A stretch of DNA of 64,000 nt, from the NCBI RefSeq assembly GCF_029945885.1, contig NZ_JAQSDK010000014.1, forward strand, positions 124,001-188,000, in the 5' to 3' direction. Under the pieces are notes generated by a model. That model was not told where the DNA came from and searched no databases. It worked only from the letters and a program-made list of their open reading frames with translations. This DNA comes from Brevundimonas sp. (lineage in GTDB: Bacteria > Pseudomonadota > Alphaproteobacteria > Caulobacterales > Caulobacteraceae). The position numbers and the translations under genes were made by a program. Below are positions 17,581 to 37,928 of the stretch, piece after piece (positions within the stretch are counted from its first letter, which is position 1; the number at the start of each line of letters is the position of its first letter).

Positions 17581-18177
17581 CTAGGGTCGGCTGACGGTCG
17601 GACCCAGCCGGTCGATCACTTGCCGGGCACTGAAGACGTGCCCGTCGCCGGCAGGCAGGGGACCCCGGCCCATGACGATTTCGGCCGACGCCTCGAACCG
17701 TTCCACGGTCCGCATGTCGATGCTCGTGGCCCAGAACGGATCGCTTCCGTAGGGGTACCAGTTGCGCCAGCCGTTGCGTGGCCCGTAGTAGCGCCAGTAG
17801 GGCCGCCAGTAGAGGTAGCTCGACCCGTACCAAGGACTGTAGAGCGGATCAGGAGTCCCGGGCCGGGTTGTCTGGTGCTCCACCTCCCGGTCGATGACCC
17901 GGAACCAGTCATATCCGGACTGCAGGGTCAGTTCGGCCGAACGGTAGAGCAGATAGCCCTCCACCGTATCGCGGGAGGTAAAGCTGTTGCCCGAGAACGT
18001 GACCCGGTAGCGGTCCGGCGCGAGCCGCACCTCTGAATAGCCGGTAGCGTTTTGGACGCCGGCCGGGGCTGGATGATAGATTGAGCCCGGGGTCGTGCAG
18101 CCGGTGAGAACGAGGGCTGCGCCCAGGCAGGCCAGGATCCCGGCTTTCCGGAGGGGGGCGGGCAGGGGGCGGGTCAT
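17581..18177 (-). CDS. CC0125/CC1285-family lipoprotein
   Basis: 198 residues. Signal peptide with lipobox VLTGC (Cys about 27). The mature part is unusual: a beta-rich start (YSEVRLAPDRYRVTFSGNSFTS), then a Tyr/Trp-rich segment around residues 110-140 (YLYWRPYWRYYGPRNGW), and a basic C-terminus. The Caulobacter homologues are of unknown function, predicted in the outer or inner membrane. Its ATG overlaps the stop (TAA) of a 36-residue gene just upstream, so translation is coupled. Hairpin terminator follows. Confidence 0.85.
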   Translation of the reverse strand: MTRPLPAPLRKAGILACLGAALVLTGCTTPGSIYHPAPAGVQNATGYSEVRLAPDRYRVTFSGNSFTSRDTVEGYLLYRSAELTLQSGYDWFRVIDREVEHQTTRPGTPDPLYSPWYGSSYLYWRPYWRYYGPRNGWRNWYPYGSDPFWATSIDMRTVERFEASAEIVMGRGPLPAGDGHVFSARQVIDRLGPTVSRP

Positions 18178-18287
18178 TACAGAGACTCCGCAGGCGGGGC
18201 GTATTCGTGGACAAAGTTGATGATCGCCCGGGCATCGTCAGCGGACCGGGCGATCATCAACTTTATGTTTGTATTGCTGATAGACAT
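18177..18287 (-). CDS. 36-residue gene (leader-type) coupled to the lipoprotein gene
   Basis: Reading from ATG 18285-18287 gives 36 residues, MSISNTNIKLMIARSADDAR and on, ending APPAESL. It is preceded by TTGGAGATAAAC, a good ribosome binding site with six bases before the ATG. Its TAA stop overlaps the ATG of the lipoprotein gene (TAATG), an arrangement for translational coupling. No family is recognised and no membrane segment is obvious; it could be a leader peptide or a small cytosolic protein. Most of its coding sequence is the 19-bp inverted repeat. An FNR/FixK-like box lies upstream. Confidence 0.6.
   Translation of the reverse strand: MSISNTNIKLMIARSADDARAIINFVHEYAPPAESL
18213..18264. 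repeat. 19-bp perfect inverted repeat inside the small gene
   Basis: Arm 18213-18231 (AAAGTTGATGATCGCCCGG) is the exact reverse complement of 18246-18264, with a 14-base loop. In the minus-strand mRNA this would be a very stable hairpin within the small coding region, ending 36 bases before the lipoprotein ATG. Confidence 0.9.
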
Positions 18288-18357
18288 GTTTATCTCCAAA
18301 TGATGAGGTTTAAACAGTTAGCCTTGTTCAACTTTTCAATTTTGAAGTGAACATTCC

Positions 18358-18371
18358 TTGATTTGTGTCAA
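18358..18371 (-). promoter_or_regulatory. FNR/FixK-like box TTGATTTGTGTCAA
   Basis: Matches TTGAT-N4-GTCAA with 13 of 14 pattern constraints; it lies in AT-rich DNA upstream of the 36-residue gene and the lipoprotein. With the box centred at -41.5, transcription would start at 18323, 36 bases before the ATG at 18287. It is on the minus strand in effect, although the site itself is near-palindromic. Confidence 0.6.
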
Positions 18372-18415
18372 TTGTTATCGGAATTTTGACTTTTTCTCTG
18401 TTCGTTACACGACAT

Positions 18416-19440: not shown

Positions 19441-19479
19441 TCGACCGAGACCTGGCCGTTGTGGGTGACGTTGACGTTG

Positions 19480-19510
19480 CCCGACCTTCCCGGAGCCCGG
19501 GAAGGTCGGG
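19480..19510. repeat. 14-bp perfect hairpin upstream of the pseudogene
   Basis: CCCGACCTTCCCGG (19480-19493) and its reverse complement (19497-19510), separated by AGC. There is no T-run on either side, so it may be a structural element or the leftover end of a lost sequence. The stretch 19386-19605 otherwise holds no intact gene. Confidence 0.7.
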
Positions 19511-19605
19511 CTGTCGGCCCGGCAGTCGCGCCGGTTCGATACCGATGATCCGTCTGCGGAGGCTTGCCTCTTGTGCTAGCGGCCGGACTGCCGAAAACTC
19601 ACCGA

Positions 19606-20670
19606 ATGCTGATTTTCGCCAACTACCCGTATCGCGATCTTTGGACCCGACGATGGGTCGCGCTCTGTCTGGCGTTTGCGGCCCTGGTCCTGGTCCTGGC
19701 CGGGCGTCTGGTTCCGCTTGCCGGCGACCGGGTCTGGATGCTTCCGCTCGTCGGCCTGGCCCTGGTCCCGGCGGCCCTGCCGGGGCGCGGTACGGTCCTG
19801 ACCGGCATGGCCCTGTCGATAGCCGCCGCCCTGCTGATCGCGCCCGGCGCCGACGCGATGGATGGCCCGGCCAACGGCCTGATCCTGGTGGCCGCCGCCC
19901 TGCTCCTCAGCCTGATCGCCGACGGGGTGCGGGAGGCCCCGGCCGCCCGGCTTGCGGCCCGGCTCGACCGACGCTGGCGCGCCAATGCCCTTGGGGAAAT
20001 GACCGCCATCCTCGCCCATGAATTGACCCAGCCCCTGACGGCGGCCGCCGCCTATCTCCAGGCGGGCCAGACCCAGCTGGGCCGGGCCGGAGCGGGCCAT
20101 GACGCAGTCCCGGCCTTTGAACTGGTCAGGACCCAGTTGAACCGGGCCGGCGACATCCTGCGCCTGCTGCGCGAACGGCTGATCCCGGGCCCGGGCGAGC
20201 GACGACCGGAGCGGGTCTCGGATCTGATGCGGACGCTCAGGCCCGTGGTGAAGGCGATGGGCGCGGCGGCGGGGGTCGCTGTGACCGTCCGGGTCGAGGC
20301 CCGGGATGACCGGGTCCTGGCCGACGGTATCCAGATTCAGCAGGCGATGCTAAACCTTGTCCGCAACGCGATTGACTCTGTCGCCGGACAGACGGAGCGG
20401 ACGGTGACCGTCAGGGGGCGATCCATTTCCACCGACCACTACGAGATCACGGTCGAGGATTCCGGCCCCGGGATGACGCCGGACGCATGGAACCAGACCC
20501 TGCATCCCTCGATGGACAATGCCCTGGACGGTCGCGGGCTCGGCCTGTCGGTGACCCGCACCATCCTGAAATATCACGACAGTCGCCTTGCCGTACTTTC
20601 GAACGCTGCGGGCGCAGCCGGTTTTCATTTCAGCCTTGCGCGGATCGCCGAACACGGAGTGTCGGCATGA
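19606..20670 (+). CDS. FixL-like sensor histidine kinase without PAS domain
   Basis: 354 residues from ATG 19606 (an earlier in-frame TTG at 19564 is less likely). The N-terminal 110 residues hold about four to five hydrophobic helices; then the phosphoacceptor block LAHELTQPL with His138, the N box LNLVRNAIDS, G1 DSGPGM and G2 GRGLGLS. The HELTQPLTA form of the H box is that of FixL/DctB-type kinases. No PAS or heme-binding region is seen, so oxygen would have to be sensed indirectly, through the membrane, quinones or otherwise. Its stop overlaps the ATG of the response regulator (ATGA). Confidence 0.87.
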   Translation: MLIFANYPYRDLWTRRWVALCLAFAALVLVLAGRLVPLAGDRVWMLPLVGLALVPAALPGRGTVLTGMALSIAAALLIAPGADAMDGPANGLILVAAALLLSLIADGVREAPAARLAARLDRRWRANALGEMTAILAHELTQPLTAAAAYLQAGQTQLGRAGAGHDAVPAFELVRTQLNRAGDILRLLRERLIPGPGERRPERVSDLMRTLRPVVKAMGAAAGVAVTVRVEARDDRVLADGIQIQQAMLNLVRNAIDSVAGQTERTVTVRGRSISTDHYEITVEDSGPGMTPDAWNQTLHPSMDNALDGRGLGLSVTRTILKYHDSRLAVLSNAAGAAGFHFSLARIAEHGVSA

Positions 20671-21290
20671 CGCCGTCTGTCTTTGTCATCGACGATGATG
20701 CCGATGTCCGTGATTCCCTCATCACCCTGTTCCGGGGTGAGGGCCTTCAGGCGCGCGGCTTCGAGAGCGGTGGCGACTTCTTCGATCGGCTGCCTGATGA
20801 TGTGATGGCCTGTGTCGTCACTGATCTGCGTATGCCGGGTATCGATGGCAGCGAACTGATCCGTCGCGTGATGGAACTGCGGGGCCCCGTCTGGCCGGTC
20901 GTGGTGGTCACCGGCCATGCCGATGTTCCTGTGGCCGTGCGACTGATGAAGGCCGGGGTCGTCGATTTCATCGAGAAACCGATCGATCCGGTTCAGCTCG
21001 TCGCGTCTGTCAGGAGCTGTCTGTCCCGCCTGATCGACGTCAATGCCGAACGGCAGTCCCGCGCCGCCACCGTCGAGCGGCTGGAGCGACTGACTCCGCG
21101 CGAAACCCAGGTCTTCGACGGGCTGATCCGCGGTCAGTCGAACAAGGAAATCGCCCAGGATCTTGAGATCAGCCCCCGCACGGTTGAGGTGTTCCGGGCC
21201 AAGATCATGGTCAAGACCGAGGCGGCCAGCCTGTCGGCCCTCGTGCGCATGGGCCTGCAGGTCCAGGGCGATCGTGGCTGGGACGCCTGA
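20667..21290 (+). CDS. FixJ-family response regulator
   Basis: 207 residues. Receiver domain with the acidic pair near DDDAD (9-13), phosphorylated Asp53 (VVTDLRMPG), Thr near 83 (VVTGHADVP) and Lys104 (IEKPIDP); then a LuxR-type HTH at about 140-200, LTPRETQVFDGLIRGQSNKE. This receiver-HTH arrangement and the motifs are those of FixJ/TtrR. It is coupled to the kinase by a four-base ATGA overlap. Likely acts on a promoter in this island or on a FixK-like gene elsewhere; binding sites were not identified. Confidence 0.9.
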   Translation: MTPSVFVIDDDADVRDSLITLFRGEGLQARGFESGGDFFDRLPDDVMACVVTDLRMPGIDGSELIRRVMELRGPVWPVVVVTGHADVPVAVRLMKAGVVDFIEKPIDPVQLVASVRSCLSRLIDVNAERQSRAATVERLERLTPRETQVFDGLIRGQSNKEIAQDLEISPRTVEVFRAKIMVKTEAASLSALVRMGLQVQGDRGWDA

Positions 21291-21305: not shown

Positions 21306-23409
<2,104 letters not shown>

Positions 23410-23424: not shown

Positions 23425-23793
23425 TCAGACGGGCTGCAGACGCTTGACGGTATAGGTGTGCTGGGTCCCGCTGGCGGTCATCAGCGACACATACTCGCCG
23501 AGGACGAACGTCTCCTCGCCGAGGCGGAAGCCGGTCACGTCCTCGGTGTCACCCGGATCGAGATCGAGGATCCAGCGGTCGCCGGTGGTGTGGCGCAGTT
23601 GGCCGGTCGCCACCGTCGCGTCATCGACGAAGCGGCGCACGTGGCAGCGTTCCGGCTCGGCGTTCAGCGCGGCCAGGTCCAGCCGGCCCTCGGCATCCAG
23701 CGGGGCCACAAGGTCATAGCCGGACCCGCCGTCGCCGTGGGGGTGGTCGGCATCACGGGCCAGTTCAAGCCGGATATGCTGGAAGGCGGACAT
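23425..23793 (-). CDS. conserved protein of unknown function
   Basis: 122 residues, soluble, without signal or membrane segment. It is beta-rich: YDLVAPLDAEGRLD, HTTGDRWILDLDPGD and EETFVLGEYVSLMT, giving a possible small beta-barrel or barrel-like fold with HTYTVKRLQPV at the end. I do not recognise the family. In this operon it lies between universal stress protein 1 (20 bp upstream) and the quinone reductase (15 bp downstream), so it probably acts in the same oxygen-limitation response. Confidence 0.75.
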   Translation of the reverse strand: MSAFQHIRLELARDADHPHGDGGSGYDLVAPLDAEGRLDLAALNAEPERCHVRRFVDDATVATGQLRHTTGDRWILDLDPGDTEDVTGFRLGEETFVLGEYVSLMTASGTQHTYTVKRLQPV

Positions 23794-23812: not shown

Positions 23813-24631
23813 TCAATGGCTGAGCAGAAGGCAGACGGGGCTGTGGTCGAGCAGGGCCCGGGTCACCCCGCCCAGCGCCCATTCCCGCAGTCGGGCATGG
23901 CCGTAGCCGCCGGCGACGATCAGGCCGGCGGATTTTTCGTCGGCGAATTTCAGGATGGCATCGGCGCAGGACTCCTCGCCCCGCCCGCGAACCGCACCCT
24001 CGGCGGCAATACCGTGACGGCCCAGCCAGGCCACGACGTCCGCGAGGCGGGCCCGGGCTTCGGCCGTATCCTCGTCGTCGCAGATTTCCAGTACATGGGC
24101 GGTGCCGGTCTGGCGCAGCATCGGTACGGCGGCCGCCACCGCGCGCCGGGCCTCGCGACTGTCGGACCAGGCGATCACCGCCGGCCAGCCGATCGGCGTG
24201 CGGGGCGCGGCCGGCGGCACCACCATGACCGGGCGGCCGGCGGCCATCAGCACATCCGCCGGGTCGGGGCCGTAGAACGGTGCCCGGTCGGTGCGACGAC
24301 CGAGGATCAGAAGATCGGCGGCGCGCGACTGTTCGATCATCAGTTCAGCCGGGAAGCCGATGTGCCCGCGCCATTCACCGTCGGCGAGTTCGTGAAACCG
24401 GGTCTCGGCGCGCGTCACATTGGCCTCCGCCAGGTCGCGGTACAGGGTCAGGGCCTCGCCCATCATGGCCCCGCCCAGATAGGGGTCGCCGACCGGCGGC
24501 GGCACCGGGGCGCTGCCGGACACGCCGATCAGCCGGGCCTCGAAGACCTTTGCCAGGTCACAGGCCAGGGCGATGCGGGTATCACTGTCCAGACCTTCGT
24601 CGGCATAGACCATCAGGGTCTTGTAGCTCAT
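23813..24631 (-). CDS. universal stress protein 1 (two Usp domains)
   Basis: 272 residues from ATG 24631, preceded by AGGAG. The N-terminus MSYKTLMVYADEG is the first Usp strand; the C-terminal half holds the ATP-binding pattern GGYGHARLREWALGGVTRALL (Gx2Gx9G type), near residue 245. Length and the repeated folding pattern suggest two fused Usp domains, of which the second binds ATP. The gene heads a four-gene operon and shares FNR/FixK box 24682-24695 with the cytochrome gene on the other strand. Confidence 0.9.
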   Translation of the reverse strand: MSYKTLMVYADEGLDSDTRIALACDLAKVFEARLIGVSGSAPVPPPVGDPYLGGAMMGEALTLYRDLAEANVTRAETRFHELADGEWRGHIGFPAELMIEQSRAADLLILGRRTDRAPFYGPDPADVLMAAGRPVMVVPPAAPRTPIGWPAVIAWSDSREARRAVAAAVPMLRQTGTAHVLEICDDEDTAEARARLADVVAWLGRHGIAAEGAVRGRGEESCADAILKFADEKSAGLIVAGGYGHARLREWALGGVTRALLDHSPVCLLLSH

Positions 24632-24681: not shown

Positions 24682-24695
24682 TTGATCGGGATCAA
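24682..24695. promoter_or_regulatory. FNR/FixK box TTGATCGGGATCAA between universal stress protein 1 and the cytochrome gene
   Basis: Exact match to TTGAT-N4-ATCAA. If centred at -41.5 it gives starts at about 24647 for the minus-strand operon (16 bases before the ATG at 24631) and at 24730 for the plus-strand cytochrome gene (17 bases before the ATG at 24747). Either or both directions may be used. Confidence 0.8.
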
Positions 24696-24746: not shown

Positions 24747-25142
24747 ATGTCACCAGTGAAATTCATCGCCCTGGCCCTGCTGGCCGGCTGCACCACCGCC
24801 CCGATGCCGGCGACGGATGCCGCGAGCCCGGGAGCCGGGTCAGCGATCGCCGTGACCGACTCGTCGATGGGCGGGTCTGTCGCCCGGGGGGCCGCCCTGG
24901 TCCGGACGCGCTGTGTCGCCTGTCATGCCGTCGGGCCTGTGGGCGACAGTCCGCTGGCCATGGCCCCGCCCTTCCGCGAGCTGGGCCGCCGCTATCCGGT
25001 CAGCAGCCTGCAGGAATCCTTCGCGGAAGGTCTGGTCACGGCCCATCCGGAGATGCCCGAATTCACCTTCGAGCCCGAGCAGGTCCGGGATTTGATCGCC
25101 TATCTCGAGAGCCTTGAGGACACCGGCCGCAGCGCCCGCTAG
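24747..25142 (+). CDS. class I c-type cytochrome lipoprotein
   Basis: 131 residues from ATG 24747. Lipobox LLAGC with Cys15, so the mature protein is tethered to a membrane on the periplasmic side. Heme motif CVACH at 56-60, and likely axial Met103 in HPEMPEF. This is a small, single-heme cytochrome c, and could shuttle electrons between periplasmic donors and a terminal oxidase or reductase. The ribosome binding site GAGGGA is present. It is divergent from the stress-protein operon and shares its FNR/FixK box. Confidence 0.88.
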   Translation: MSPVKFIALALLAGCTTAPMPATDAASPGAGSAIAVTDSSMGGSVARGAALVRTRCVACHAVGPVGDSPLAMAPPFRELGRRYPVSSLQESFAEGLVTAHPEMPEFTFEPEQVRDLIAYLESLEDTGRSAR

Positions 25143-25177: not shown

Positions 25178-25300
25178 TCAGGACGGATCGTCACGGCGTC
25201 GCGGCAGGGCGGTCTTCAGCGCCGCCCAGCCCACCGCGATGATGAAGGCGGCGAAGACGGCGACGGTTCCGATGATGATGGGGACGACCTGGGCAGGCAT
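25178..25300 (-). CDS. 40-residue single-pass membrane protein
   Basis: Read from ATG 25298-25300 to the stop at 25178, preceded by AGGAG. The protein MPAQVVPIIIGTVAVFAAFI and on to PRRRDDPS has one hydrophobic helix, residues about 5-27, then a basic tail that would stay in the cytoplasm. It resembles in size the small accessory subunits of respiratory oxidases (CydX, CcoQ-like), though the sequence is not a clear member of either. An FNR/FixK box is 52 bp upstream, which would give a 17-base leader. Confidence 0.75.
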   Translation of the reverse strand: MPAQVVPIIIGTVAVFAAFIIAVGWAALKTALPRRRDDPS

Positions 25301-25351: not shown

Positions 25352-25365
25352 TTGATCGAGGTCAA
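25352..25365 (-). promoter_or_regulatory. FNR/FixK-like box TTGATCGAGGTCAA of the 40-residue membrane gene
   Basis: TTGAT-N4-GTCAA. It lies 52 bp upstream of the ATG at 25300; a class II position (-41.5) gives transcription from 25317, 17 bases before the ATG. Also 6 bp beyond the stop end of the next minus-strand gene at 25371, so it is a true intergenic site. Confidence 0.7.
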
Positions 25366-25370: not shown

Positions 25371-25799
25371 TCAGAACACCCGGTGCAGCACCGTGGCCCC
25401 CGAGGCCAGCACCAGGGCGGCCGTGTCCGGCGGGGTGTCCATGGGCCGCACCAGGCTGAGGCTGTCACAGTCGCGAATCTCGGCCACGCGCAGAACCTCG
25501 GCGATCAGGGCATCGGCGACAGCCGTCGGATCCAGCAGGTCGAAACTGATCAGCCGGTCGATCTGCAAGCTGGGTCGGCCGGCGAATTTGGGTGCAATCG
25601 CATAGAGCAGCAGGCCGCGCAGGCGGCCCGTCCTGTCGCGGGCCGTCAGAATGCCGCCGGTGGCCGGATCGGCCTCGATCCGATGCAGGGCCATGCTGCG
25701 CCAGTCGGCCTGCGACAGATCAGCATAGCCCAGACGCACCAGCACATAGGCGTCGTCAATGTCGTCGGCGACAAGATGTCGAACGGATACGATAGGCAT
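25371..25799 (-). CDS. conserved protein of unknown function, possible GNAT fold
   Basis: 142 residues from ATG 25799. Beta-strand pattern MPIVSVRHLVADDIDDAYVL, then GILTARDRTGRLRGLLLYAI (residues about 52-71), and IDRLISFDLLDPTAVADALI resembles an acetyltransferase core, but the acetyl-CoA loop is not clear. An earlier in-frame start (25847) exists, but it would reach over the FNR/FixK-like box at 25834-25847. From 25799 the distance from the box centre is exactly 41.5 bases, hinting at a leaderless transcript. It may belong to a set of proteins near fnr genes. Confidence 0.65.
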   Translation of the reverse strand: MPIVSVRHLVADDIDDAYVLVRLGYADLSQADWRSMALHRIEADPATGGILTARDRTGRLRGLLLYAIAPKFAGRPSLQIDRLISFDLLDPTAVADALIAEVLRVAEIRDCDSLSLVRPMDTPPDTAALVLASGATVLHRVF

Positions 25800-25833: not shown

Positions 25834-25847
25834 TTGATCTCTGTCAA
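25834..25847. promoter_or_regulatory. FNR/FixK-like box TTGATCTCTGTCAA between the GNAT-like gene and the FNR gene
   Basis: TTGAT-N4-GTCAA. For the plus-strand FNR gene the implied start is 25882, a 28-base leader to ATG 25910, which is a natural arrangement for self-regulation. For the minus-strand gene the implied start is 25799, its ATG itself. Confidence 0.7.
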
Positions 25848-25909: not shown

Positions 25910-26647
25910 ATGCTGGAAATCAGAACCTTTCCGTCCAACTGTTTCAGGCGAAGCAGCAGCATAGCTTGCGACACCTGCGGCGCGCGCGCGCTCAGCGTGT
26001 GCGGCAGTGTTGACGACACCGACCTGGGCCGGCTCGACGCCATGGCCGAACATGCCAGCTTCGCCGCCGGATCGGTCCTGATCCGCGAGGGCGATCCCGC
26101 CCGGCACGTCTTCAACATCACCTCAGGTTCGGTGCGGGTCTACAAGCTGCTGGCCGACGGTCGACGCCAGATCACCGGCTTCCTGTTCACCGGCGACTTT
26201 CTCGGCCTGGCCACCGGTGACACCTATGTGTTTTCGGCCGAGGCGGTCGAACCGGCCACGGCCTGCCGCTTCCGCAAGACCGAATACCGGGCCCTGATCC
26301 GCGACTGCCCGACGCTGGAGGCCACCCTGTTCGACCGGGCCAATCACGAGCTGGCGGCGGCCCAGAGCCAGATGCTGCTGCTGGGTCGCAAGACGGCGCT
26401 GGAACGGATCGCCACCTTCCTGCTGGACCTGCCTTCGCACGATCCGGCCCGGACCATCCCTCCGGGCCATGTCCACCTGCCGATGACCCGGGCCGAGATC
26501 GCCGATTATCTGGGTCTGACCATCGAGACGGTCAGCCGGGTCCTGACCCGGCTCAAGACCCAGGGTGTGATCCGCCTGGTCTCCCTGTCGGAATTGCGGG
26601 TCGAACAACCCGAGGTCCTGCGCGCTCTGGCCGACGGGGTCGGCTGA
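25910..26647 (+). CDS. FNR/FixK-type transcription regulator (Crp/Fnr family)
   Basis: 245 residues. The cysteines C20-x2-C23-x7-C31 (ACDTCGARALSVC), and C119 (TACRF), are placed as in [4Fe-4S] FNR proteins, so it is probably an oxygen-labile sensor of the FnrN/FnrL type; C11 is extra. cNMP-like barrel at about 45-130, and a C-terminal HTH (MTRAEIADYLGLTIETVSRVL) with the ExxSR form that reads TTGAT half sites. It is convergent with cydC (6 bp gap) and has an FNR-like site in its own promoter, which suggests autoregulation. It is the best candidate for the controller of the island. Confidence 0.93.
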   Translation: MLEIRTFPSNCFRRSSSIACDTCGARALSVCGSVDDTDLGRLDAMAEHASFAAGSVLIREGDPARHVFNITSGSVRVYKLLADGRRQITGFLFTGDFLGLATGDTYVFSAEAVEPATACRFRKTEYRALIRDCPTLEATLFDRANHELAAAQSQMLLLGRKTALERIATFLLDLPSHDPARTIPPGHVHLPMTRAEIADYLGLTIETVSRVLTRLKTQGVIRLVSLSELRVEQPEVLRALADGVG

Positions 26648-28302: not shown

Positions 28303-29921
28303 AGCTGCACCACGACATCGGCCAGGGCGGCGACCGCCGCCGAATGGGTGGCGATCAGGGTCGTGCGGCCGCGCGCCGCGGTCTGGATCACCGGCAGCAG
28401 GGCGGCTTCGGCGGCGGCGTCCAGATTGGCGGTCGGCTCGTCCAGCAGCAGGATCGGTGCCGGTTTCAACAGGGCGCGGGCCAGGCCCAGCCGCCGCCGC
28501 TCGCCGCCGGACAGGCCGCCGCCGCGTTCGTCGAGAATCCGGTCGAGGTCGCCGTCCAGACCGGCCAGGGTCGCGACGGCCTGCAGCCGCTGACGCGAGG
28601 CCCCGCGCGCGGCCAGGGCGATGTTGTCGCCGAGGGTCCCCGGCACCACGACCGGGGCCTGGCTGGCCCAGCCGACCCGATCGGTGAAACTGCCGGCCGT
28701 CGACAGGGTCAGGCCGTCGGTCTCGACCTCGCCCGCGGCCAGGGGAGCCAGGCCCAGCAGCAGGTGCAGCAGGCTGCTCTTGCCCGAGCCGCTCGGCCCG
28801 ACCAGGGCGATGATCGCGCCGGCCGGCACATCCAGATCGAAGTCGCGCACCGGGCTGACGCCGTCGTCATAGGTGATGGTCACGCCGCGAAAGCGCAGGG
28901 CCGGGGCCGGCGCGCCGGCCGGAACGGGTCGCCGGGTGGCGCGGGTCTCGGGCGAGGTGACGGTCGCGGCCAGGGACAGGGCCGCGGCCTCGGCCGCCTG
29001 GCGCTCGTGATAGGCCGCCGCCAGCCGCCGCATCGGGGCATAGACCTCCGGGGCCATGGCCAGGACGAAGAAGGCCCGCGACAGGGTCAGGGTCTCCGGC
29101 ACCGGAAACGGCAGCAGGTGCAGCAGGTTGAAGCCGCAATAGACGGCCACCAGCGCCACGGACAGGGCCGAGAAGAACTCCAGCACCCCGGAGGACAGGA
29201 AGGCGATCTTCAGCACCCGGCCGGTACGTCGTTCCAGCGCGTCGGCGGCGCGGGCGATCTCGCCGGTGGTGCGAGCCTCGGCCTGGAAGGCCAGCAGGGT
29301 CGGCAGGGCCCGCACCCGGTCGAGGAACAGGCCCGACAGCCGCTCCAGCGCCAGGAACTGCCGCCGGCTCTCGGCCGCAGCCGCCGTGCCGGTCAGGATC
29401 ATGCCGACGGCGAAGGGGATCAGGGTCAGGGTCAGGATGCCCGCGGCCACCGGACTGGCGACGGCGCACAGGGCGATGACCACCACCGGGGCGACCGCCG
29501 CGGCCAGCCGGGCCGGGTTGAACCGGGCATAGTAGCCGTCCAGCGCCTCGACCCCGTCGACCACGGCGGTCATCGGGTCGCCCGCGGGCCGCTGTCCGGC
29601 GAACAGCCGGGTCAGCAGGTCGCCGCGCACCCGGCGTTTGACCATGGCGGCCCCCTGACCGGCCGTCATCACGGCCGCCTGTGCGACCAGTCCGCGCAGG
29701 GCCAGGCTGACGCCGGCCACCGCCAGCCACGGAACGGCGGCGGCGGGCGTGTGCTGCAGGGCCCCGATGGCCATGGCCAGACCAAGGGCAAACCCAGTGG
29801 CTGGCAGGATGTCGGCGATGACCAGGGCCGTGGCCAGGCCGTTCAGCCGCCGCCACGGGCGGGCAACAGCCGCCAGCCAGCGCTTCGGTTCGACGGTCGG
29901 GGTCACATCAATTGTGGTCAT
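28299..29921 (-). CDS. cydD: CydD, subunit of the CydDC ABC transporter
   Basis: 540 residues from ATG 29921 (an extended reading to 29969 would cover the FNR/FixK box and is unlikely). Membrane domain at about 40-300, with the [20 protein letters not shown] stretch typical of CydD; then Walker [16 protein letters not shown] (about 370), signature [14 protein letters not shown], and the Walker [13 protein letters not shown]. No ribosome binding site is evident before ATG 29921. The FNR/FixK box is centred exactly 41.5 bases upstream of the ATG, so the transcript may be leaderless. It is divergent from cydA. Confidence 0.93.
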
Positions 29922-29955
29922 CGACTGTCGGTAAGTGCCTGCGTCGGTGTAAACT

Positions 29956-29969
29956 TTGATCAAGATCAA
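29956..29969. promoter_or_regulatory. FNR/FixK box TTGATCAAGATCAA between cydDC and cydABX
   Basis: Exact match to TTGAT-N4-ATCAA, and the clearest site in the window. Toward cydA it implies a start at 30004, a 39-base leader with CAGGAG before ATG 30043; toward cydD the implied start is 29921, the ATG itself. Confidence 0.9.
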
Positions 29970-30042
29970 GGTTCAGACCTAAAGCGCCCCCTAGACGGGG
30001 CGTCAACCGGTCGTTCGAATCGGCACTCAGGAGACCTGCCCC

Positions 30043-31617
30043 ATGATTGACCTCGCGGTCGTCGATCTGTCCCGCCTGCAGTTCGCCCTGACGGCGCTGT
30101 ATCACTTCCTGTTCGTGCCGTTGACGCTCGGCCTGTCCTTCATGCTGGTGATCATGGAGAGCATCTATGTGATGACGCGCCGGCCGATCTGGCGGACCAT
30201 CACCCGGTTCTGGGGCCTGTTGTTCGGGATCAATTTCGCCCTCGGCGTGGCCACCGGCATCACGATGGAATTCCAGTTCGGCATGAACTGGGCGTATTAC
30301 AGCCACTACGTCGGCGACATCTTCGGGGCCCCGCTGGCCATCGAGGGGCTGATGGCCTTCTTCCTTGAGGCCACCTTCGTCGGGCTGATGTTCTTCGGCT
30401 GGGACAAGCTGAGCCGGGTCGGCCACCTGTTCGTGACCTTCATGGTCGCCCTCGGTACCAATCTTTCGGCGCTGTGGATCCTGATCGCCAACGGCTGGAT
30501 GCAGAATCCGGTCGGCTCGACCTTCAATCCGGACACGATGCGGATGGAGGTCTCGGACTTCATGGCCGTGCTGTTCAACCCGGTGGCCCAGGCCAAATTC
30601 GTCCATACGGTCAGCGCCGGCTATGTGATCGCCGCCGTCTTCGTGCTGGGTGTTTCGGCCTTCTACCTGCTCAAGGGCAAACACGTCGGCTTCGCCAAAC
30701 GCTCGATGACCGTGGCCGCCGCCTTCGGCCTGGCCGCCTCCCTGTCGGTCGTCGTGCTCGGCGACGAGAGCGGCTATGCCCTGACCGACAACCAGAAAAT
30801 GAAACTGGCCGCGCTCGAGGCCATGTGGGAGACCGAGCCCGCCCCGGCCGGTCTGACCGCCTTCGGCATTCCCAGCCTGAAGGACCGCAAAACCCATTAT
30901 GAGGTCAAGATTCCCTATGTCCTGGGCCTGATCTCGACCCGCAGCATCAACACGCCGGTCGAGGGCATTCTGCAGCTGGTCGCGACGGCGGAGACCCGGA
31001 TCGAGAACGGCGTCCTCGCCTATGACGCGGTCGAGCGGATCAAGGCTGATCCGACCGACATCGCCGCCCGTGGCGATTTCGAGGTCCACCGCAACGACCT
31101 GGGCTATGCGCTGCTGCTGAAACGCTATGTCGCCGACCCGCGTCAGGCCACGCCCGAACAGGTGGTCCAGGCCGCCTGGAGCACCGTGCCCAATGTGCCG
31201 CTGATGTTCTGGGCCTTCCGCATCATGGCCGGCATCGGCTTCCTGATGATCGGCCTGTTCGCCACCGCCTTTGTGCTGTGCACCCTGCGCAAGCACGACA
31301 CCCGCTGGTTCCTGTGGCTGGCCGTGCTGGCCATCCCCCTGCCGTGGATCTCGACCGAACTGGGCTGGATCCTGGCCGAGGTCGGACGTCAGCCCTGGGC
31401 GGTCGAGGGCGTGCTGCCCACCTTCCTCGGGGCCTCCAGCCTGAGCGTCTCCCAGCTGTGGGGCACGATCATCGGCTTCACGGTCCTGTACGGGGCGCTG
31501 GCCGTGGTCGAGGTCGGGTTGATCCTGCACGCGATCAAGAAGGGTCCGTTCGCCGAACAGGAAGCCTTCGCCGACCCCGACTCCCCGACCCCCGTCCCCG
31601 CGCCCGCCGTCGCCTGA
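30043..31617 (+). CDS. cydA: cytochrome bd ubiquinol oxidase subunit I, CydA
   Basis: 524 residues, close to E. coli CydA (522). It is a multi-span subunit that oxidises ubiquinol and carries hemes b558, b595 and d. Heme-axial His near residue 18 (LYHFLFVPLTLG), the quinol-side GRQPW motif (near 446) and VHTVSAGYVIAA near 190 are all seen. The soluble loop between the middle helices (about 250-330) is the Q-loop, here with EIPYVL and LISTRSINTPVEG. Heads cydABX and shares the FNR/FixK box with cydDC. Confidence 0.96.
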   Translation: MIDLAVVDLSRLQFALTALYHFLFVPLTLGLSFMLVIMESIYVMTRRPIWRTITRFWGLLFGINFALGVATGITMEFQFGMNWAYYSHYVGDIFGAPLAIEGLMAFFLEATFVGLMFFGWDKLSRVGHLFVTFMVALGTNLSALWILIANGWMQNPVGSTFNPDTMRMEVSDFMAVLFNPVAQAKFVHTVSAGYVIAAVFVLGVSAFYLLKGKHVGFAKRSMTVAAAFGLAASLSVVVLGDESGYALTDNQKMKLAALEAMWETEPAPAGLTAFGIPSLKDRKTHYEVKIPYVLGLISTRSINTPVEGILQLVATAETRIENGVLAYDAVERIKADPTDIAARGDFEVHRNDLGYALLLKRYVADPRQATPEQVVQAAWSTVPNVPLMFWAFRIMAGIGFLMIGLFATAFVLCTLRKHDTRWFLWLAVLAIPLPWISTELGWILAEVGRQPWAVEGVLPTFLGASSLSVSQLWGTIIGFTVLYGALAVVEVGLILHAIKKGPFAEQEAFADPDSPTPVPAPAVA

Positions 31618-31641
31618 CCGTCGATCTCCAGGATACCGAAC

Positions 31642-32790
31642 ATGGAACTTCCCATCGACTATGCCACCCTCCGCCTGATCTGGTGGGGCCTGCTGGGCGT
31701 GCTGCTGATCGCCTTCGCCCTGACGGACGGCTTTGACCTCGGTGTCGGTGCCCTGCTGCCCTTCGTCGCGAAGACCGATGAGGAACGCCGGATGGTGATC
31801 AACACCGTCGGGGCCACCTGGGAAGGCAACCAGGTCTGGTTCATCCTGGGGGGCGGGGCCATCTTTGCCGCCTGGCCCTTCGTCTATGCGGTCAGCTTCT
31901 CCGGCTTCTACCTGGCCATGTTCCTGGTGCTGGCGGCGCTGATCCTGCGACCGGTGGCGTTCAAATACCGGTCCAAACGGCCCGGCAAGGCCTGGCGCAG
32001 CTTCTGGGACTGGGCCCTGTTCGTCGGCGGCTTCGTGCCGGCCCTGGTGTTCGGCGTGGCCGTCGGCAACGTCCTGATCGGAGCCCCCTTCCGCCTCGAC
32101 AGTGACCTGCGCAGTTTCTACGACGGTACCCTGCTGGGTCTGTTCACCCCGTTCAGCCTGCTGTGTGGTCTGCTGTCGGTGGCCATGCTGGTGTTGCATG
32201 GCGCGGCCTGGCTGGGCATCAAGGCCGAGCACGGCCCGGTCGCGGCCCGGGCCCGCACCTTCGGCACGGTCGCCGGCCTGCTCGGAATCGTCCTGTTCAT
32301 CGCCGGTGGCCTGTTTGTGGCCTGGGGTGATCTCGGCTTCCGTATCGTCGGGACTGTCGATCCGTCGGGCATGTCCAATCCGCTGCGAACCGCCGTGGTC
32401 TCGGCCCCCGGTGCCTGGCTCGACAACTACGGCCTGTATCCGTGGATGGTCGCCGCCCCCGTGCTGGGCCTGGTCGGCGTCGTGGCAGCCCTGATCGGCC
32501 TGTGGCGCCGGTCCGAACCCCTGGCCTTCGCCGGCTCGGCGATTTCGGTGATCGGCATCATCTCGACGGTCGGCCTGTCGATGTTCCCCTTCATCCTGCC
32601 CAGCTCGATCGATCCCGCCTCCAGCCTGACGGTGTGGAACTCCTCCTCCACCCATCTGACCCTGTTCATCATGCTGGGGGTCACGGTGGTCTTCCTGCCG
32701 CTGATCCTGATCTACACCGCCTGGGTCTATAAGGTGCTGTGGGGCCGGACGAGCACCGCCGCCCTCAAGACCAACCCCGACCTGTACTGA
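31642..32790 (+). CDS. cydB: cytochrome bd ubiquinol oxidase subunit II, CydB
   Basis: 382 residues and about eight hydrophobic helices. The start MELPIDYATLRLIWWGLLGV and LTDGFDLGVGALLPFVAK are CydB family motifs; TVGATWEGNQVWFILGGGA follows at about 52-70. It pairs with CydA, 24 bp upstream, and lies 21 bp before cydX. No unusual features. Confidence 0.96.
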   Translation: MELPIDYATLRLIWWGLLGVLLIAFALTDGFDLGVGALLPFVAKTDEERRMVINTVGATWEGNQVWFILGGGAIFAAWPFVYAVSFSGFYLAMFLVLAALILRPVAFKYRSKRPGKAWRSFWDWALFVGGFVPALVFGVAVGNVLIGAPFRLDSDLRSFYDGTLLGLFTPFSLLCGLLSVAMLVLHGAAWLGIKAEHGPVAARARTFGTVAGLLGIVLFIAGGLFVAWGDLGFRIVGTVDPSGMSNPLRTAVVSAPGAWLDNYGLYPWMVAAPVLGLVGVVAALIGLWRRSEPLAFAGSAISVIGIISTVGLSMFPFILPSSIDPASSLTVWNSSSTHLTLFIMLGVTVVFLPLILIYTAWVYKVLWGRTSTAALKTNPDLY

Positions 32791-32811
32791 CCGAACCGAG
32801 GACTTGATCTG

Positions 32812-32970
32812 ATGTGGTATTTTGCCTGGATTCTCGGCCTCGGCCTCGCCGTCGCCTTCGGGGTTCTCAATGGCGTCTGGCACGAGTTCCGCCTGTTCGA
32901 CGAGGGCGACATGGGCCAGTCCGAGCCTGAGCCGGTGATCCCGGACGCGACGGACACCCCGCGGCCCTGA
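32812..32970 (+). CDS. cydX: CydX, small subunit of cytochrome bd oxidase
   Basis: 52 residues, a single hydrophobic helix: MWYFAWILGLGLAVAFGVLN and on, with the conserved WYFAWILG start and a conserved Trp-His/Glu region (VWHEFRL). E. coli CydX is 37 residues; the extra acidic and proline-rich tail (SEPEPVIPDATDTP) is common in alphaproteobacteria. It stabilises the oxidase's heme site. It starts 21 bp past cydB. Confidence 0.93.
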   Translation: MWYFAWILGLGLAVAFGVLNGVWHEFRLFDEGDMGQSEPEPVIPDATDTPRP

Positions 32971-33002
32971 CCGGCCCCGGGAGCCTGACGGAGGACGCAC
33001 GC

Positions 33003-33515
33003 ATGACGACGGACATCACCCCCATCCACGGCGGGGCCGTGGCGGCGATCGTGGCCCTGATGGATTCCCAGCGGTTGCTGACCCTGGGGGTCAACCGTCC
33101 CGACGGCTGGCCGCAGGTGACCACGGTCGGCTACGTCAACGACGGCCTCAACCTCTATATGAGCGTCGCCCGCGACAGTCAGAAACTGGCCAACATCCAG
33201 GCCGATCCGCGCGTCTCCATCGCCATTCGCAGCGAGGCGGACCGCGGTGACGCCGTTGGCCTGTCGCTGGCCGGTCGGGCCACCGAGGTGCGGGATCCCG
33301 ACCTGATCGCGGGCATCAACCGTCTGGTCGCCGCCCGCTATCCTGATGTGAATGTCTACTGCCCCAGCGGCGAGTCGGTCGCCGTGATCCATGTCGCCCC
33401 GCTGATCATCGCCCCGGTCGCCGTGGCCGACGGCCGCAGCCGCCCGCAGACCTTCTCGATCGGCGAGGGGATCGGCGATGTGGCGGGTCCGGACGGGGTG
33501 TCGCGGCTGTTCTAG
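33003..33515 (+). CDS. pyridoxamine 5'-phosphate oxidase-like (PNPOx family) protein
   Basis: 170 residues with a split-barrel flavin-binding fold: LMDSQRLLTLGVNRPDGWPQ (about 20-39), then TTVGYVNDGLNLYMSV and ANIQADPRVSIAI (about 63-75). Such proteins bind FMN, F420 or heme, and their functions vary from pyridoxal oxidase to general redox proteins. It starts 32 bp past cydX and reads in the same direction, so it is probably co-transcribed with the oxidase. Specific reaction unknown. Confidence 0.8.
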   Translation: MTTDITPIHGGAVAAIVALMDSQRLLTLGVNRPDGWPQVTTVGYVNDGLNLYMSVARDSQKLANIQADPRVSIAIRSEADRGDAVGLSLAGRATEVRDPDLIAGINRLVAARYPDVNVYCPSGESVAVIHVAPLIIAPVAVADGRSRPQTFSIGEGIGDVAGPDGVSRLF

Positions 33516-33554: not shown

Positions 33555-33860
33555 CTATTTCTCGGCGTTGAGGCGCGCGACCAGGACGCCCAGCAGGGCG
33601 ACGGCCGAGGCGACCAGGGCCGCAGTCGTCACCGGATGGGCGCGGACCTCGTCGACGACCTGTTTGCCGGCTGCGGTCGAGGTCTTGCGGGCTTCCCCGA
33701 CCAGACGTTCGGTGGCCCGGCTCAGTGCTTCCGACGACCGGTGCAGGGCTTCATTGGCCTCCTTGCCGGTCTTCTGGGCGGCGGCCTTCAGATTGTCGGC
33801 CACCTCCGTGACGAGATCCTGGACGTCCTGGTTGAGCTTGTCGGCGGCGGATTGGGTCAT
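33555..33860 (-). CDS. DUF883/ElaB/YqjD-type ribosome-associated membrane protein
   Basis: 101 residues from ATG 33860 with GAGGAG ahead. Mostly one long helix, SAADKLNQDVQDLVTEVADN and on to about 75, with a phasin-like or coiled pattern, then one hydrophobic helix at the C-terminus (VTTAALVASAVALLGVLVA). E. coli YqjD and ElaB are inner-membrane proteins that bind ribosomes in stationary phase. A one-mismatch FNR/FixK-like box is 56 bp upstream. It diverges from universal stress protein 2. Confidence 0.82.
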   Translation of the reverse strand: MTQSAADKLNQDVQDLVTEVADNLKAAAQKTGKEANEALHRSSEALSRATERLVGEARKTSTAAGKQVVDEVRAHPVTTAALVASAVALLGVLVARLNAEK

Positions 33861-33915: not shown

Positions 33916-33929
33916 ATGATCTGGATCAA
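33916..33929. promoter_or_regulatory. FNR/FixK-like box ATGATCTGGATCAA between the DUF883-type gene and universal stress protein 2
   Basis: One mismatch to TTGAT-N4-ATCAA (A in the first position). Toward the minus strand the implied start is 33881, 21 bases before the ATG at 33860. Toward the plus strand it is 33964, 42 bases before GTG 34006. Confidence 0.65.
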
Positions 33930-34005: not shown

Positions 34006-34869
34006 GTGAGCTACAAACTCATCATGGCCCTCGCCGGCGGTGGCCCCGAAGACGCGGTGACCCTGGCCTTCGCCGCCGCCCTTGCCGTTCAGCACGATGC
34101 CGTTGCCCATGTCCTGCCGATCCACCCGGACGCCGCGCTCGACCTCGTGGCCCTGGGCCTGACCCTGGGGGCACCGCTGTCGCCGGAGGTGACCCAGGCC
34201 CTGTCCGAGGCCCAGCGTGACTGCCAGGCGCGGATCGACTCGGCCGCCCGTGCCGCCGCCGCCGATGTCGACCTTGTCTTCGGCGAGGGCGAGGGCGGAC
34301 CGCGGATGGTGGTCCATCCGCACAGTGTGATGCCGGCCGAGGGCCTGGCGCGCGCCCTGGTGCTGGCCGATCTGGTGGTGGTCAGCCAGGACTATCTGGG
34401 CGGGCCCGGACGCGACGGCCGCGTCCTGGGCCAGGTCCTGCTGGACCAGCGCGCGCCGGTGCTGATCGCCCGCGGCAAGCCGGACCGGTTGTCCGGCCGC
34501 GTCGCCATCGCCTGGAACGGCAGTGTCGAGGCGGGGCGCGCCGTGCACGGGGCCCTGCCGTTGATCGCCATGGGCTCGGACCTGATCCTGCTGCAATCCC
34601 CCCGGGGCGCGGTCGCGCCGAACGGGGCCACCGGCATGACACCGCTCAATGACTGGCTGCGCCTGCACGGGGTCGGAACCGGCCGACCGGTTCCGGTCAG
34701 CGGCCCGTCGGCAGGTGAGGCCCTTATCAAGGGGACGCGCGATCATGACGTCGGCCTGCTGGTGGCCGGGGCCTGGGGCCATTCGCGGCTCAGGGAGGCG
34801 ATTTTCGGCGGGGCGACCCGGGCCTTCCTCGACGACGTCGACGGCCCCAGCCTGCTGCTCGCCCACTGA
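34006..34869 (+). CDS. universal stress protein 2 (two Usp domains)
   Basis: 287 residues from GTG 34006. MSYKLIMALAGGGPEDAVTL begins like universal stress protein 1 (MSYKTLMVYADEG). The Usp ATP-like motif GAWGHSRLREAIFGGATRAFL is at the C-terminus. A longer reading from 33964 would put the start on top of the implied transcription start. It heads a coupled operon, ending with TGATG that overlaps the LysE gene's ATG. The upstream box at 33916-33929 suggests FNR/FixK control. Confidence 0.88.
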   Translation: MSYKLIMALAGGGPEDAVTLAFAAALAVQHDAVAHVLPIHPDAALDLVALGLTLGAPLSPEVTQALSEAQRDCQARIDSAARAAAADVDLVFGEGEGGPRMVVHPHSVMPAEGLARALVLADLVVVSQDYLGGPGRDGRVLGQVLLDQRAPVLIARGKPDRLSGRVAIAWNGSVEAGRAVHGALPLIAMGSDLILLQSPRGAVAPNGATGMTPLNDWLRLHGVGTGRPVPVSGPSAGEALIKGTRDHDVGLLVAGAWGHSRLREAIFGGATRAFLDDVDGPSLLLAH

Positions 34870-35534: not shown

Positions 35535-37153
35535 GCCTGTCCCTGACCTTCCATGGTGCCGCCGGTTGCGTGACCGGATTCTGCGCCCTGCTGCAGACCG
35601 ATCACGGCCGCTTCCTGGTCGACTGCGGCCTGTTCCAGGGCCCCAAGACGCTGAAGGCCCTGAACCACGGCGACTTTCCGTTCGAGGCCCGCGACATCGA
35701 CGGCGTCTTCCTGACCCATGCCCATATCGACCATTCCGGCCTGCTGCCGAAGCTGGTCCGGGCCGGCTATCGCGGCCCCATCTATGCCACCCGGCCGACC
35801 CGCGACCTGTGCGCGGTGATGCTCGAGGACGCCGCCGGTATCCAGGAGGGGGATGTCGCCCATCTGAACCGTCGCAACGAACGCCGCGGCCTGCCGCGGG
35901 TCGAACCCATCTATTCGACCGCCGATGTCGAGCCGACCCTGCGCCTGTTCGAGACGGTGAAATTCAGTGAGGAGGTCGAGGTCGTACCGGGGATCACGGC
36001 CCGCTACTGGCCCGCCGGACATCTGCTGGGGGCCGCCTCGGTTGAACTGGTCATCGAGGACGGGGGCAAGCCGGTGCGGCTGCTGTTCTCGGGCGATCTT
36101 GGTTCCGGTCACCAGCCCTTCCTGCCGGCCCCGGACGGGCCCGTCGGGGTCGACCATCTGGTGATGGAGGCCACCTATGGCGACCGGGAGCGCGTCGATC
36201 TTGACCTCGTCGAACGGCGCGCCGCCCTCGCCGAGGAGTTGCGTCTGGCCAGGGCCGCCGGCGGCCCGCTGCTGATGCCGACCTTTGCCGTTGGCCGGGC
36301 CCAGGACCTGATCCTCGACCTGCTGGCGGTGATGGAGGCGGAGCCCGAACTGGCCGGGGAAATCTATCTCGACTCGCCGCTGGCCATCGAGGCGACCGAG
36401 GTCTTCCTGCAGCGCGGCTGGAACATCGACGCCTCGGAGAATCCCTATCTGGTGCTGCGCCACGCGACGCGGCTGCACTATCTGCGGCGCTATCAGGAGA
36501 GCGACCGGCTGGACCGGCTGCGCGACTGGCATGTCATCCTCGCCGGTAGCGGCATGTGCGATGCGGGCCGGATCCGCAAACATCTGAAACGGCTGCTGTG
36601 GCGGCGCGAGACCACGCTGCTGATCACCGGTTTTCAGGCGGCCGGGACCCTGGGCCGGCTGTTGATGGCCTCGCCCAGCCAGGTGCGTATCCAGGGCGAC
36701 GATATCCGCGTCCATGCCAGGATCCGCACCCTGGACGTCTATTCCGGCCATGCCGACGCCTCGGCCCTGGTGGCCTGGTTCCAGGCCCGCGGCCCGGTCA
36801 CCGGCAAGGTCTTTCTGGCCCATGGCGAGCCGGATGCGGTGGCCGCCCTGTCCGGCCATCTGGTCGCGGCCGGGGGGGCGGCCGGGGTAGTGATCGCGCC
36901 CGAACTGGACCAGACCTTCGCCCTGACGCGGGAGACGGCGACCCTGGTCGAGGGGCGGGCGGCGCGGATGCTGCCCGGGGCGGCGACCCGACCGGACTGG
37001 TACAATGCCCGGGCCGACCTGCTCAGCACGATGAACGAATCCCTGCAGGCCCTGGCGGACGACGAACAGCGTCTGGCCGTGATCGCGGCGATGAAGGCGG
37101 CCCTGCTGACCGCGCCACCCGCCGCGACATCGGGAGACCGGGCCCATGACTGA
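35531..37153 (+). CDS. MBL-fold beta-CASP nuclease (RNA-processing exonuclease type)
   Basis: 540 residues. Metallo-beta-lactamase metal motifs: HAHIDHSG (about 63-70), GHLLGA (His near 164), SGDLG (Asp near 189), MEATYG (Glu near 214, motif A of beta-CASP), SGHAD (motif B, about 402) and LAHGE (motif C, near 428). This is the Ysh1/CPSF73-like branch that cleaves RNA, not the true beta-lactamases. It overlaps the LysE gene and, by eight bases, the LOG-family gene. No N-terminal signal, so it acts in the cytoplasm. Confidence 0.92.
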   Translation: MSLSLTFHGAAGCVTGFCALLQTDHGRFLVDCGLFQGPKTLKALNHGDFPFEARDIDGVFLTHAHIDHSGLLPKLVRAGYRGPIYATRPTRDLCAVMLEDAAGIQEGDVAHLNRRNERRGLPRVEPIYSTADVEPTLRLFETVKFSEEVEVVPGITARYWPAGHLLGAASVELVIEDGGKPVRLLFSGDLGSGHQPFLPAPDGPVGVDHLVMEATYGDRERVDLDLVERRAALAEELRLARAAGGPLLMPTFAVGRAQDLILDLLAVMEAEPELAGEIYLDSPLAIEATEVFLQRGWNIDASENPYLVLRHATRLHYLRRYQESDRLDRLRDWHVILAGSGMCDAGRIRKHLKRLLWRRETTLLITGFQAAGTLGRLLMASPSQVRIQGDDIRVHARIRTLDVYSGHADASALVAWFQARGPVTGKVFLAHGEPDAVAALSGHLVAAGGAAGVVIAPELDQTFALTRETATLVEGRAARMLPGAATRPDWYNARADLLSTMNESLQALADDEQRLAVIAAMKAALLTAPPAATSGDRAHD

Positions 37154-37928
37154 TCATCCGTCCAACGGGGCCCAGCAGGCCTCGCCCTCCTACCGGCTGC
37201 CGGCTCTGGATACGGACTTCCTGCTCAGTGACTCCATGCGGGGCGTGCGCTTCCAGCTGGAGTTCGCCAAGGCCGACCAGGCGCTGCGGGCCTGGGGCGT
37301 CCGCTCGACCATCGTGGTGTTCGGCAGTGCCCGGGTGCGCGAGGACGGACCTCCCGATCACGCCCGCTGGTATGCCGAGGCGCGCCGCTTCGGGGCTGTC
37401 GCCTCGCAACTCGGCGGGGCCATGCGCGACATCGGCCAGGTCCGGGACAACGTCATCGCCACCGGCGGCGGGCCCGGCATCATGGCGGCCGCCAACCGCG
37501 GCGCGTCCGAGGTCGGGGCCCCTTCGATCGGCTTCAACATCACCCTGCCGCATGAGCAGGAACCCAACGCCTGGTCGACGCCGGACCTGACCTTCCGCTT
37601 CCACTATTTCGCCATGCGCAAGATGCATCTGGCCATGCGCGCCAATGCCCTGGTGATCTTTCCCGGCGGTTTCGGCACCTTTGACGAACTGTTCGAGATC
37701 CTGACCCTGCGCCAGACCGAAAAGTCGCCGCCGATCCCGGTGGTCCTGGTCGACGAGGCGCACTGGCGGTCGGTCGTCGGCTTTGAGACCCTCGTCGCCA
37801 ATGACCTGATTGCGGCTTCGGATCTCAACCTGTTTCGCTTCGCGGAAACCGCTGAAGAGACCTGGCAGGCGCTGCTGGACGGCGGGCTCAAGCCGCATCC
37901 GCCGTCCGACTACGCCCCGGTGCCCTGA
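37146..37928 (+). CDS. LOG-family (TIGR00730-like) nucleotide phosphoribohydrolase
   Basis: 260 residues. The LOG signature PGGFGTFDELFEILTL is at about 170-185, and VVFGSARVREDGP near 57 is the nucleotide-binding Rossmann element. LOG proteins release the base from 5'-nucleoside monophosphates, in plants cytokinin-activating; in bacteria the substrates include AMP and others. The long N-terminus (about 45 extra residues) differs from short LOG proteins and resembles the PpnN branch. It is the last gene of the coupled operon. Confidence 0.88.
   Translation: MTDHPSNGAQQASPSYRLPALDTDFLLSDSMRGVRFQLEFAKADQALRAWGVRSTIVVFGSARVREDGPPDHARWYAEARRFGAVASQLGGAMRDIGQVRDNVIATGGGPGIMAAANRGASEVGAPSIGFNITLPHEQEPNAWSTPDLTFRFHYFAMRKMHLAMRANALVIFPGGFGTFDELFEILTLRQTEKSPPIPVVLVDEAHWRSVVGFETLVANDLIAASDLNLFRFAETAEETWQALLDGGLKPHPPSDYAPVP

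Follow-up and report, generated by a model that had tools for sequence, protein, structure and literature searches.

An FNR-type regulator, its putative boxes and a box-linked microprotein in a predicted low-oxygen island of Brevundimonas

In Caulobacter crescentus, the FixLJ-FixK system has been described to include cydA and ccoN among the targets activated by FixK (PMC3751524). A survey covering four genomes of the order Caulobacterales reported that the order has only FixK and inferred a loss of FnrN (PMC4999443). For the bd oxidase of Escherichia coli, a fourth subunit termed YnhF/CydY was described as a tiny single helix that is made at low oxygen and whose gene is placed outside the cyd operon (PMC6853902). 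Here we analyzed a stretch of 64,000 nucleotides from a Brevundimonas sp. of the family Caulobacteraceae (positions 124,001 to 188,000 of contig NZ_JAQSDK010000014.1, assembly GCF_029945885.1), in the following referred to as the window, with a focus on the island at window positions 17581 to 37928, which carries a gene for an FNR-type regulator (fnr) next to the genes of cytochrome bd oxidase. An earlier note on this DNA had proposed an oxygen-limitation regulon of about 20 genes with six FNR-type boxes, its own FNR regulator and a FixL/FixJ-like pair.

We consider it likely that the FNR-type protein binds the boxes of the island at low oxygen and switches the genes on, as judged from the DNA and protein sequences. 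The boxes and the genes at the center of the island are the following.

18358..18371, box 1 (TTGATTTGTGTCAA), the weakest exact site, upstream of a 36-codon open reading frame (ORF) and a lipoprotein gene
24682..24695, box 2, exact, between usp1 and the cytochrome c gene
25178..25300, minus strand, sORF40, 40 amino acids, probably a single-helix membrane microprotein, no Pfam or NCBIfam model
25352..25365, box 3, exact, its center 58.5 bp before sORF40
25371..25799, minus strand, unk158, uncharacterized protein of 142 amino acids, divergent partner of fnr
25834..25847, box 4, exact, between unk158 and fnr
25910..26647, plus strand, fnr, FNR-type regulator of 245 amino acids with Cys20, Cys23, Cys31 and Cys119 and the recognition helix ETVSR
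26653..28302, minus strand, cydC, best family TIGR02868 (292 bits, cut-off 329)
28299..29921, minus strand, cydD, TIGR02857 (450 bits, cut-off 435), start set by inspection
29956..29969, box 5, exact, between cydD and cydA
30043..31617, plus strand, cydA, PF01654 (572 bits, over cut-off)
31642..32790, plus strand, cydB, PF02322 (335 bits, over cut-off)
32812..32970, plus strand, cydX, PF08173 (56 bits, cut-off 26)
33003..33515, plus strand, PNPOx-like flavin protein, perhaps part of the cyd operon
33916..33929, box 6, one mismatch, found by pattern scan between a DUF883-like gene and usp2

Boxes were searched with the FNR-type pattern TTGAY-N4-RTCAA, and the reversed pattern served as a control. 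The scan of the window returned five exact boxes (18358, 24682, 25352, 25834 and 29956) and the one-mismatch box at 33916, all six located where the earlier note had placed them. In 100 dinucleotide shuffles of the window, a mean of 0.07 exact matches was obtained and none of the shuffles reached five. The whole genome (3,125,547 bp) contains 19 exact boxes compared to two matches of the control pattern, and five of the 19 fall within 11,612 bp (8e-9 by binomial probability, uncorrected for the selection of this region). The remaining 14 exact sites lie outside, so the island is part of the regulon and not all of it. The clustering anticipated in the earlier note was thereby found, although four exact sites each are also present at two other places in the genome, C33 and C35. 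A further one-mismatch site at 30220, within cydA, is probably due to chance.

The box link is strong for cytochrome bd. An exact box was located 78-95 bp before the cydA start in 66/66 other Brevundimonas genomes that carry cydA (E 1e-100), whereas Markov-made null sequences contained such a box in only 1 of 6600 cases. CydA, CydB and CydX are all over the cut-offs of their models, and the gene calls for cydDC and cydABX in the earlier note, including CydX by virtue of PF08173, were right in outline. In the window, the distance from the box center to the start codon amounts to 58.5 bp for the cytochrome c gene and sORF40, 69.5 for fnr, 80.5 for cydA, 41.5 for unk158 and cydD, and 83.5 for usp2. 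The -10 slots read TTTTCT (sORF40), TCTGAT (usp1), TAGACG (cydA) and TACCGA (cydD), and those of the cytochrome c gene (GACAAG) and fnr (CGATCC) are poor.

The most interesting result of this analysis is the unnamed microprotein family to which sORF40 belongs. Relatives were detected in 62 of the 121 genus genomes (E 0.01), including partial and weak matches. Upstream of the family members, an exact box was present in 29 of the 30 best-scoring loci, the window included, the exception being cut by a contig end; eight further genus genomes identified in a second search contributed seven more exact boxes and a single mismatched one, giving 36/38 in total. In the 36 loci, the distance from the first box position to the start codon is 61-73 bp (61-69 bp if the ATG two codons upstream is used in L162). 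Among 27 non-redundant promoters, from which those without an exact box were left out, preferences relative to the box center were seen at position 2 (A, +30.5) and position 6 (T, +34.5) of a -10 hexamer (16/27 each). A preferred A at +41.5 (16/27) coincides with the expected place of a class II start. This spacing fits class II activation by FNR. Indirectly, the kept promoter points to sORF40 being made, probably under oxygen limitation.

At the protein level, the family is characterized by an initial M-P, an F-x2-F within a hydrophobic stretch and then, in most members, G-G...W. No confident Pfam, NCBIfam or PDB family was found for sORF40. Its profile obtained 125 matches in protein databases at E up to 10; the 120 listed ones were named "hypothetical protein", save for one labelled as a ClpP protease subunit and entries given by position only. 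The neighbors of the gene differ among loci and include cydC, unk122, usp1, scpC and fnr. Across the 121 genomes, sORF40 and cydA occur together in 57, the microprotein alone in five, cydA alone in 10 and neither in 49 (Fisher test, 4e-18, a p-value that overstates the evidence, since the genomes are related). The microprotein was found in 57/67 cydA genomes compared to 3/28 genomes with ccoN.

As a tentative proposal, which we regard as possible and not as likely, sORF40 would represent a novel membrane microprotein family, switched by FNR and serving the cytochrome bd of Brevundimonas, an independent counterpart of YnhF/CydY that changes its neighbors freely and yet hardly ever leaves its FNR box. 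Like YnhF/CydY as described (PMC6853902), sORF40 is tiny, probably consists of a single helix, is predicted to be made at low oxygen and is encoded outside the cyd operon. Unlike the E. coli subunit, sORF40 is tied to the oxidase by co-occurrence and the shared box only. Searching the PDB with the sORF40 profile (E up to 10) resulted in seven matches, all to gap junction proteins and none to a chain of YnhF/CydY, which we take to be the protein also called CydH, though very short proteins can escape such a search.

The regulator itself contains a cNMP-binding-like domain (PF00027, 67 bits) and a Crp-type helix-turn-helix (HTH) domain (PF13545, 68 bits). In an alignment of 59 FNR rows (29 from named contigs and 30 from genus genomes, window included), Cys20, Cys23, Cys31 and Cys119 were found in 56, 57, 57 and 58 rows, respectively, and the recognition helix E-T-[VI]-S-R is present in all 59, which bears out the four cysteines and the ExxSR helix proposed earlier. 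Among the named contigs, it matches proteins of Brevundimonas albigilva (76%) and B. variabilis (74%). The FNR of G003, a genome of the same genus as the window, is identical to that of Brevundimonas sp. PMG_242, and the genus was accordingly assigned as Brevundimonas. A PDB search placed FixK2 on top and an FNR, presumably the Aliivibrio protein, second; aligned to the solved FNR, Cys20, Cys23 and Cys119 are matched by cysteines of that protein, and Cys31 is offset by two positions. The protein scored below the cut-off of 300 bits with both the FnrL equivalog NF045989 (161.5 bits) and the FixK equivalog NF050806 (150 bits), and we therefore call it FNR-type and no more. It is predicted to carry an oxygen-labile iron-sulfur cluster. 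An assignment as FixK was rejected in view of the 150 bits, the presence of the iron-sulfur cysteines and the position of FixK-like proteins in a separate clade. An exact box upstream of fnr was present in 35/59 loci compared to 6% of random 290-bp stretches from the same loci.

In a regulator tree of 67 rows, from which the broken copy in L028 was left out, the FNR rows of Caulobacteraceae and Caulobacterales form one supported clade (44 rows, 100/97), within which a mainly Caulobacter subclade (99/93) is separated from a Brevundimonas subclade (94/94). FixK-like proteins make up another clade (90/99). FNR rows from outside the family are scattered, three of them sitting nearest to FixK with weak support, and the tree comes with a long-branch warning. 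This topology fits an inheritance of FNR inside the family. The window protein groups with that of G050, which has cydA, and those of G057, G076 and G095, which carry ccoN (98/92). In L027, a contig labelled Brevundimonas vancanneytii, the FNR groups with the Caulobacter FNRs and its gene lies near ccoN; the label may be wrong.

The presence of a four-cysteine FNR in Caulobacteraceae contradicts the published inference that FnrN was lost in Caulobacterales and replaced by FixLJ-FixK, as reconstructed from the four surveyed genomes (PMC4999443). The system resembles the FnrN/FnrL-type FNR regulons of other Alphaproteobacteria in its four cysteines, its ETVSR helix, the TTGAY-N4-RTCAA boxes and cyd among the targets. 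It differs in that the window protein misses the FnrL cut-off and comes from Caulobacteraceae, a family of the order for which the survey of four genomes reported only FixK. With the FixLJ-FixK-FixT network of Caulobacter, as far as described, it shares the box type and cydA as a target, predicted here and FixK-activated there. In contrast, the window protein carries the cysteines, and the FixK-like proteins encoded in the Caulobacter loci fall into a clade of their own.

The distribution of terminal oxidases points to cytochrome bd and cbb3 as alternatives within one genus. Of the 121 genus genomes, 67 have cydA, 28 have ccoN above the family cut-off and 26 have neither; at the thresholds used, none has both. 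Sub-threshold matches comprise ccoN fragments in G087 and G121 as well as ccoN-like proteins that score ~270-280 bits (cut-off 583); one protein of the latter kind is encoded in G124, a genome with cydA. FNR was found in 48 of 81 genus genomes (E 1e-60), accompanied by cydA in 44; four genomes have FNR only, four cydA only and 29 neither. The window genome has a single gene for a haem-copper oxidase (COX1) and gave no match to ccoN, and its main low-oxygen oxidase is likely cytochrome bd. In 11 of 15 Caulobacter loci (L025-L039) ccoN is present, with fnr standing near ccoNOQP, and in 10 of these 11 (among L027 and L029-L038) a homologue of unk158 is divergent from fnr with a box between them. 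The window shares this arrangement of fnr, divergent unk158 homologue and intervening box, but has cydDC-cydABX beside fnr in a genome without a ccoN match. One reading of the tree and the neighborhoods is that the oxidase may have been swapped at an fnr-centered locus.

A further box-linked unit consists of usp1 and its downstream genes, with a cytochrome c gene on the opposite strand.

21306..22820, minus strand, scpC, succinyl-CoA:acetate CoA-transferase (NF053853, 716 bits, cut-off 500), last gene of the predicted usp1 operon
22825..23409, minus strand, flavodoxin-fold NAD(P)H/FMN oxidoreductase-like protein (domain match)
23425..23793, minus strand, unk122, uncharacterized protein of 122 amino acids, in 40/81 genus genomes
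23813..24631, minus strand, usp1, universal stress protein (domain match), start set by inspection
24747..25142, plus strand, small cytochrome c (domain match)

Close divergent usp1/cytochrome c pairs, which were sought in 119 fetched loci, had an exact box between the two genes in 10/10 rows; these represent seven different genomes, as the window is counted three times and G090 twice. The stress proteins and the cytochrome of the earlier note were confirmed in outline as two Usp proteins and cytochrome c. Judging from its known reaction, ScpC could help to form ATP while releasing acetate when oxygen is low. The unk122 protein is predicted to form a small beta-barrel and has no clear relative. 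For unk158, the model (mean pLDDT of 82.7) has a predicted GNAT fold (Foldseek E 2e-8, probability 1.00). The motif R/Q-x-x-G-x-G/A, which we take to be the usual acetyl-CoA loop of GNAT proteins, was not seen by eye in 39 aligned sequences; because of this fold without the usual loop motif, the protein may be a non-catalytic binder.

These data suggest a testable wiring diagram of how Brevundimonas responds to oxygen. When oxygen is scarce, the FNR protein would retain its iron-sulfur cluster, dimerize, bind the boxes and activate transcription. At the microprotein promoters, the dimer would sit beside RNA polymerase in a class II arrangement, and a single box between divergent genes would serve both directions. 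The predicted output comprises the bd oxidase and its maturation transporter CydDC, stress proteins and cytochrome c, the CoA-transferase possibly saving ATP via acetate, and sORF40, a possible helper of the bd oxidase. What can be read from the genomes themselves are the boxes, the cysteines, the ETVSR helix and the genus-wide retention of the cydA and sORF40 boxes. From these, we infer that the FNR protein holds a cluster, senses oxygen, binds DNA and activates transcription. A core regulon of cyd, fnr, usp1/cytochrome c and sORF40 is probable. The idea of a box-linked and probably low-oxygen regulon with its own FNR holds for cyd (66/66 boxes), fnr, usp1/cytochrome c and sORF40 (36/38 boxes) and fails for the FixLJ-like part, and its size of about 20 genes is arithmetically plausible, provided that tight same-strand runs are operons.

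Several observations weigh against FNR control of the island. The species of the genus are not independent of each other. About one third of the 48 FNR matches show only ~50% identity and may not be orthologues, and an exact box precedes fnr in only 13/30 genus loci. A box lies between divergent unk122 and cytochrome c genes in 5/16 rows. The box at 18358 is exact but poorly conserved as a regulon site, being found before 2/30 lipoprotein homologues (2/4 of the closest), and that at 33916 has a mismatch. CydC remains below its NCBIfam cut-off (292 compared to 329 bits), and so does the FixJ-like regulator of the island with the FixJ model NF006900 (232.1 bits, cut-off 255). Moreover, the number of boxes in a genome is not tied simply to this FNR: G010 and G021 lack the window-type FNR (E 1e-60) and hold 14 and 17 boxes, respectively, and therefore another regulator can probably read such boxes. 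One that could bind the same sites as FNR is encoded in the C33 cluster of the window genome, and C35 is a further box cluster.

G000:C33:109323-120575 (L017, L018), four exact boxes, nitrate-respiration island with its own Crp-type regulator
G000:C35:8260-14155 (L016, L073), four exact boxes, second stress island

By their look, we take the C33 genes to be nar genes, narK, moaA, mod genes, nnrS, ubiU/V-like genes and genes for a ribonucleotide reductase and a YtfE/RIC-like protein; those of C35 presumably encode a PEP-utilizing enzyme, an Hsp20-like protein, a hydrolase and an erythromycin-esterase-like protein. If a different regulator of the Crp/Fnr type, for example that of C33, were the main reader of the boxes, the island would answer to nitrogen oxides or to both signals. 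The ENLSR in the recognition helix of the C33 regulator, the four exact boxes of its own island and the box-rich genomes without FNR at the threshold used are in line with this explanation. We regard it as unlikely, however, because the C33 protein lacks the N-terminal cysteine pair of FNR, and fnr lies inside the island with its own box and co-occurs with cydA (both in 44 of 81 genomes).

A command of the island by the FixL/FixJ-like pair as its oxygen sensor is less probable still.

19564..20670, plus strand, membrane histidine kinase with a FixL-like kinase domain, not box-linked
20661..21290, plus strand, FixJ-like response regulator with receiver and LuxR-type HTH domains, not box-linked

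Both genes exist as claimed, the regulator reaches 232 bits with the FixJ model, and the pair is situated ~4.6 kb from fnr. In C. crescentus, the FixLJ-FixK system is described to have cydA and ccoN among its targets (PMC3751524). The proposed role as oxygen sensor is not supported, however. Domain scans of the kinase recognized neither a PAS nor a haem domain, and its alignment with Caulobacter FixL starts only at the H-box. No exact box precedes the pair, the nearest site being the one-mismatch match at 18641, ~900 bp upstream. The closest FixL-like kinase of the genome (C26) has a PAS domain but no histidine at the AHDGY position of Caulobacter FixL, which we take to have a role in haem binding, and no FixL with this histidine was found among the two closest kinases compared. 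The view that the island boxes arose by chance or have decayed and share no regulator, to which the poorly conserved box at 18358 and the mismatch at 33916 might point, is hardly credible given the exact box at a nearly fixed distance in 66/66 cydA and 36/38 microprotein promoters and the clustering probability of 8e-9, and it is already contradicted for boxes 3 and 5.

The outer parts of the island contain the following further genes.

17581..18177, minus strand, CC0125/CC1285-family lipoprotein (NF047637, 204 bits, cut-off 40)
33555..33860, minus strand, protein of 101 amino acids, DUF883-like only below cut-off
34006..34869, plus strand, usp2; downstream of it, up to 37928, lie genes for a LysE-type exporter and a beta-CASP metallo-hydrolase and a gene of the TIGR00730/LOG type

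The DUF883-type gene of the earlier note is present, but its likeness to DUF883 stays below the cut-off. Elsewhere in the genome, an exact box at G000:C14:32491-32504 (L019) is located ~117 bp upstream of a gene for a secreted-looking protein of 1303 amino acids. An antisense open frame of 1030 codons runs across cydABX (window 29908-33000) and is most likely a shadow of high-GC coding. At the left side, the 36-codon ORF of the minus strand (window 18177-18287) overlaps with the start of the lipoprotein gene (TAATG) and holds a long inverted repeat, GATGATCGCCCGG / CCGGGCGATCATC. An outer-membrane beta-barrel-like gene (window 18416-19385, minus strand) is apparently broken over several frames, and a tRNA-Arg(CCG) is located at the left edge of the island (window 17371-17447).

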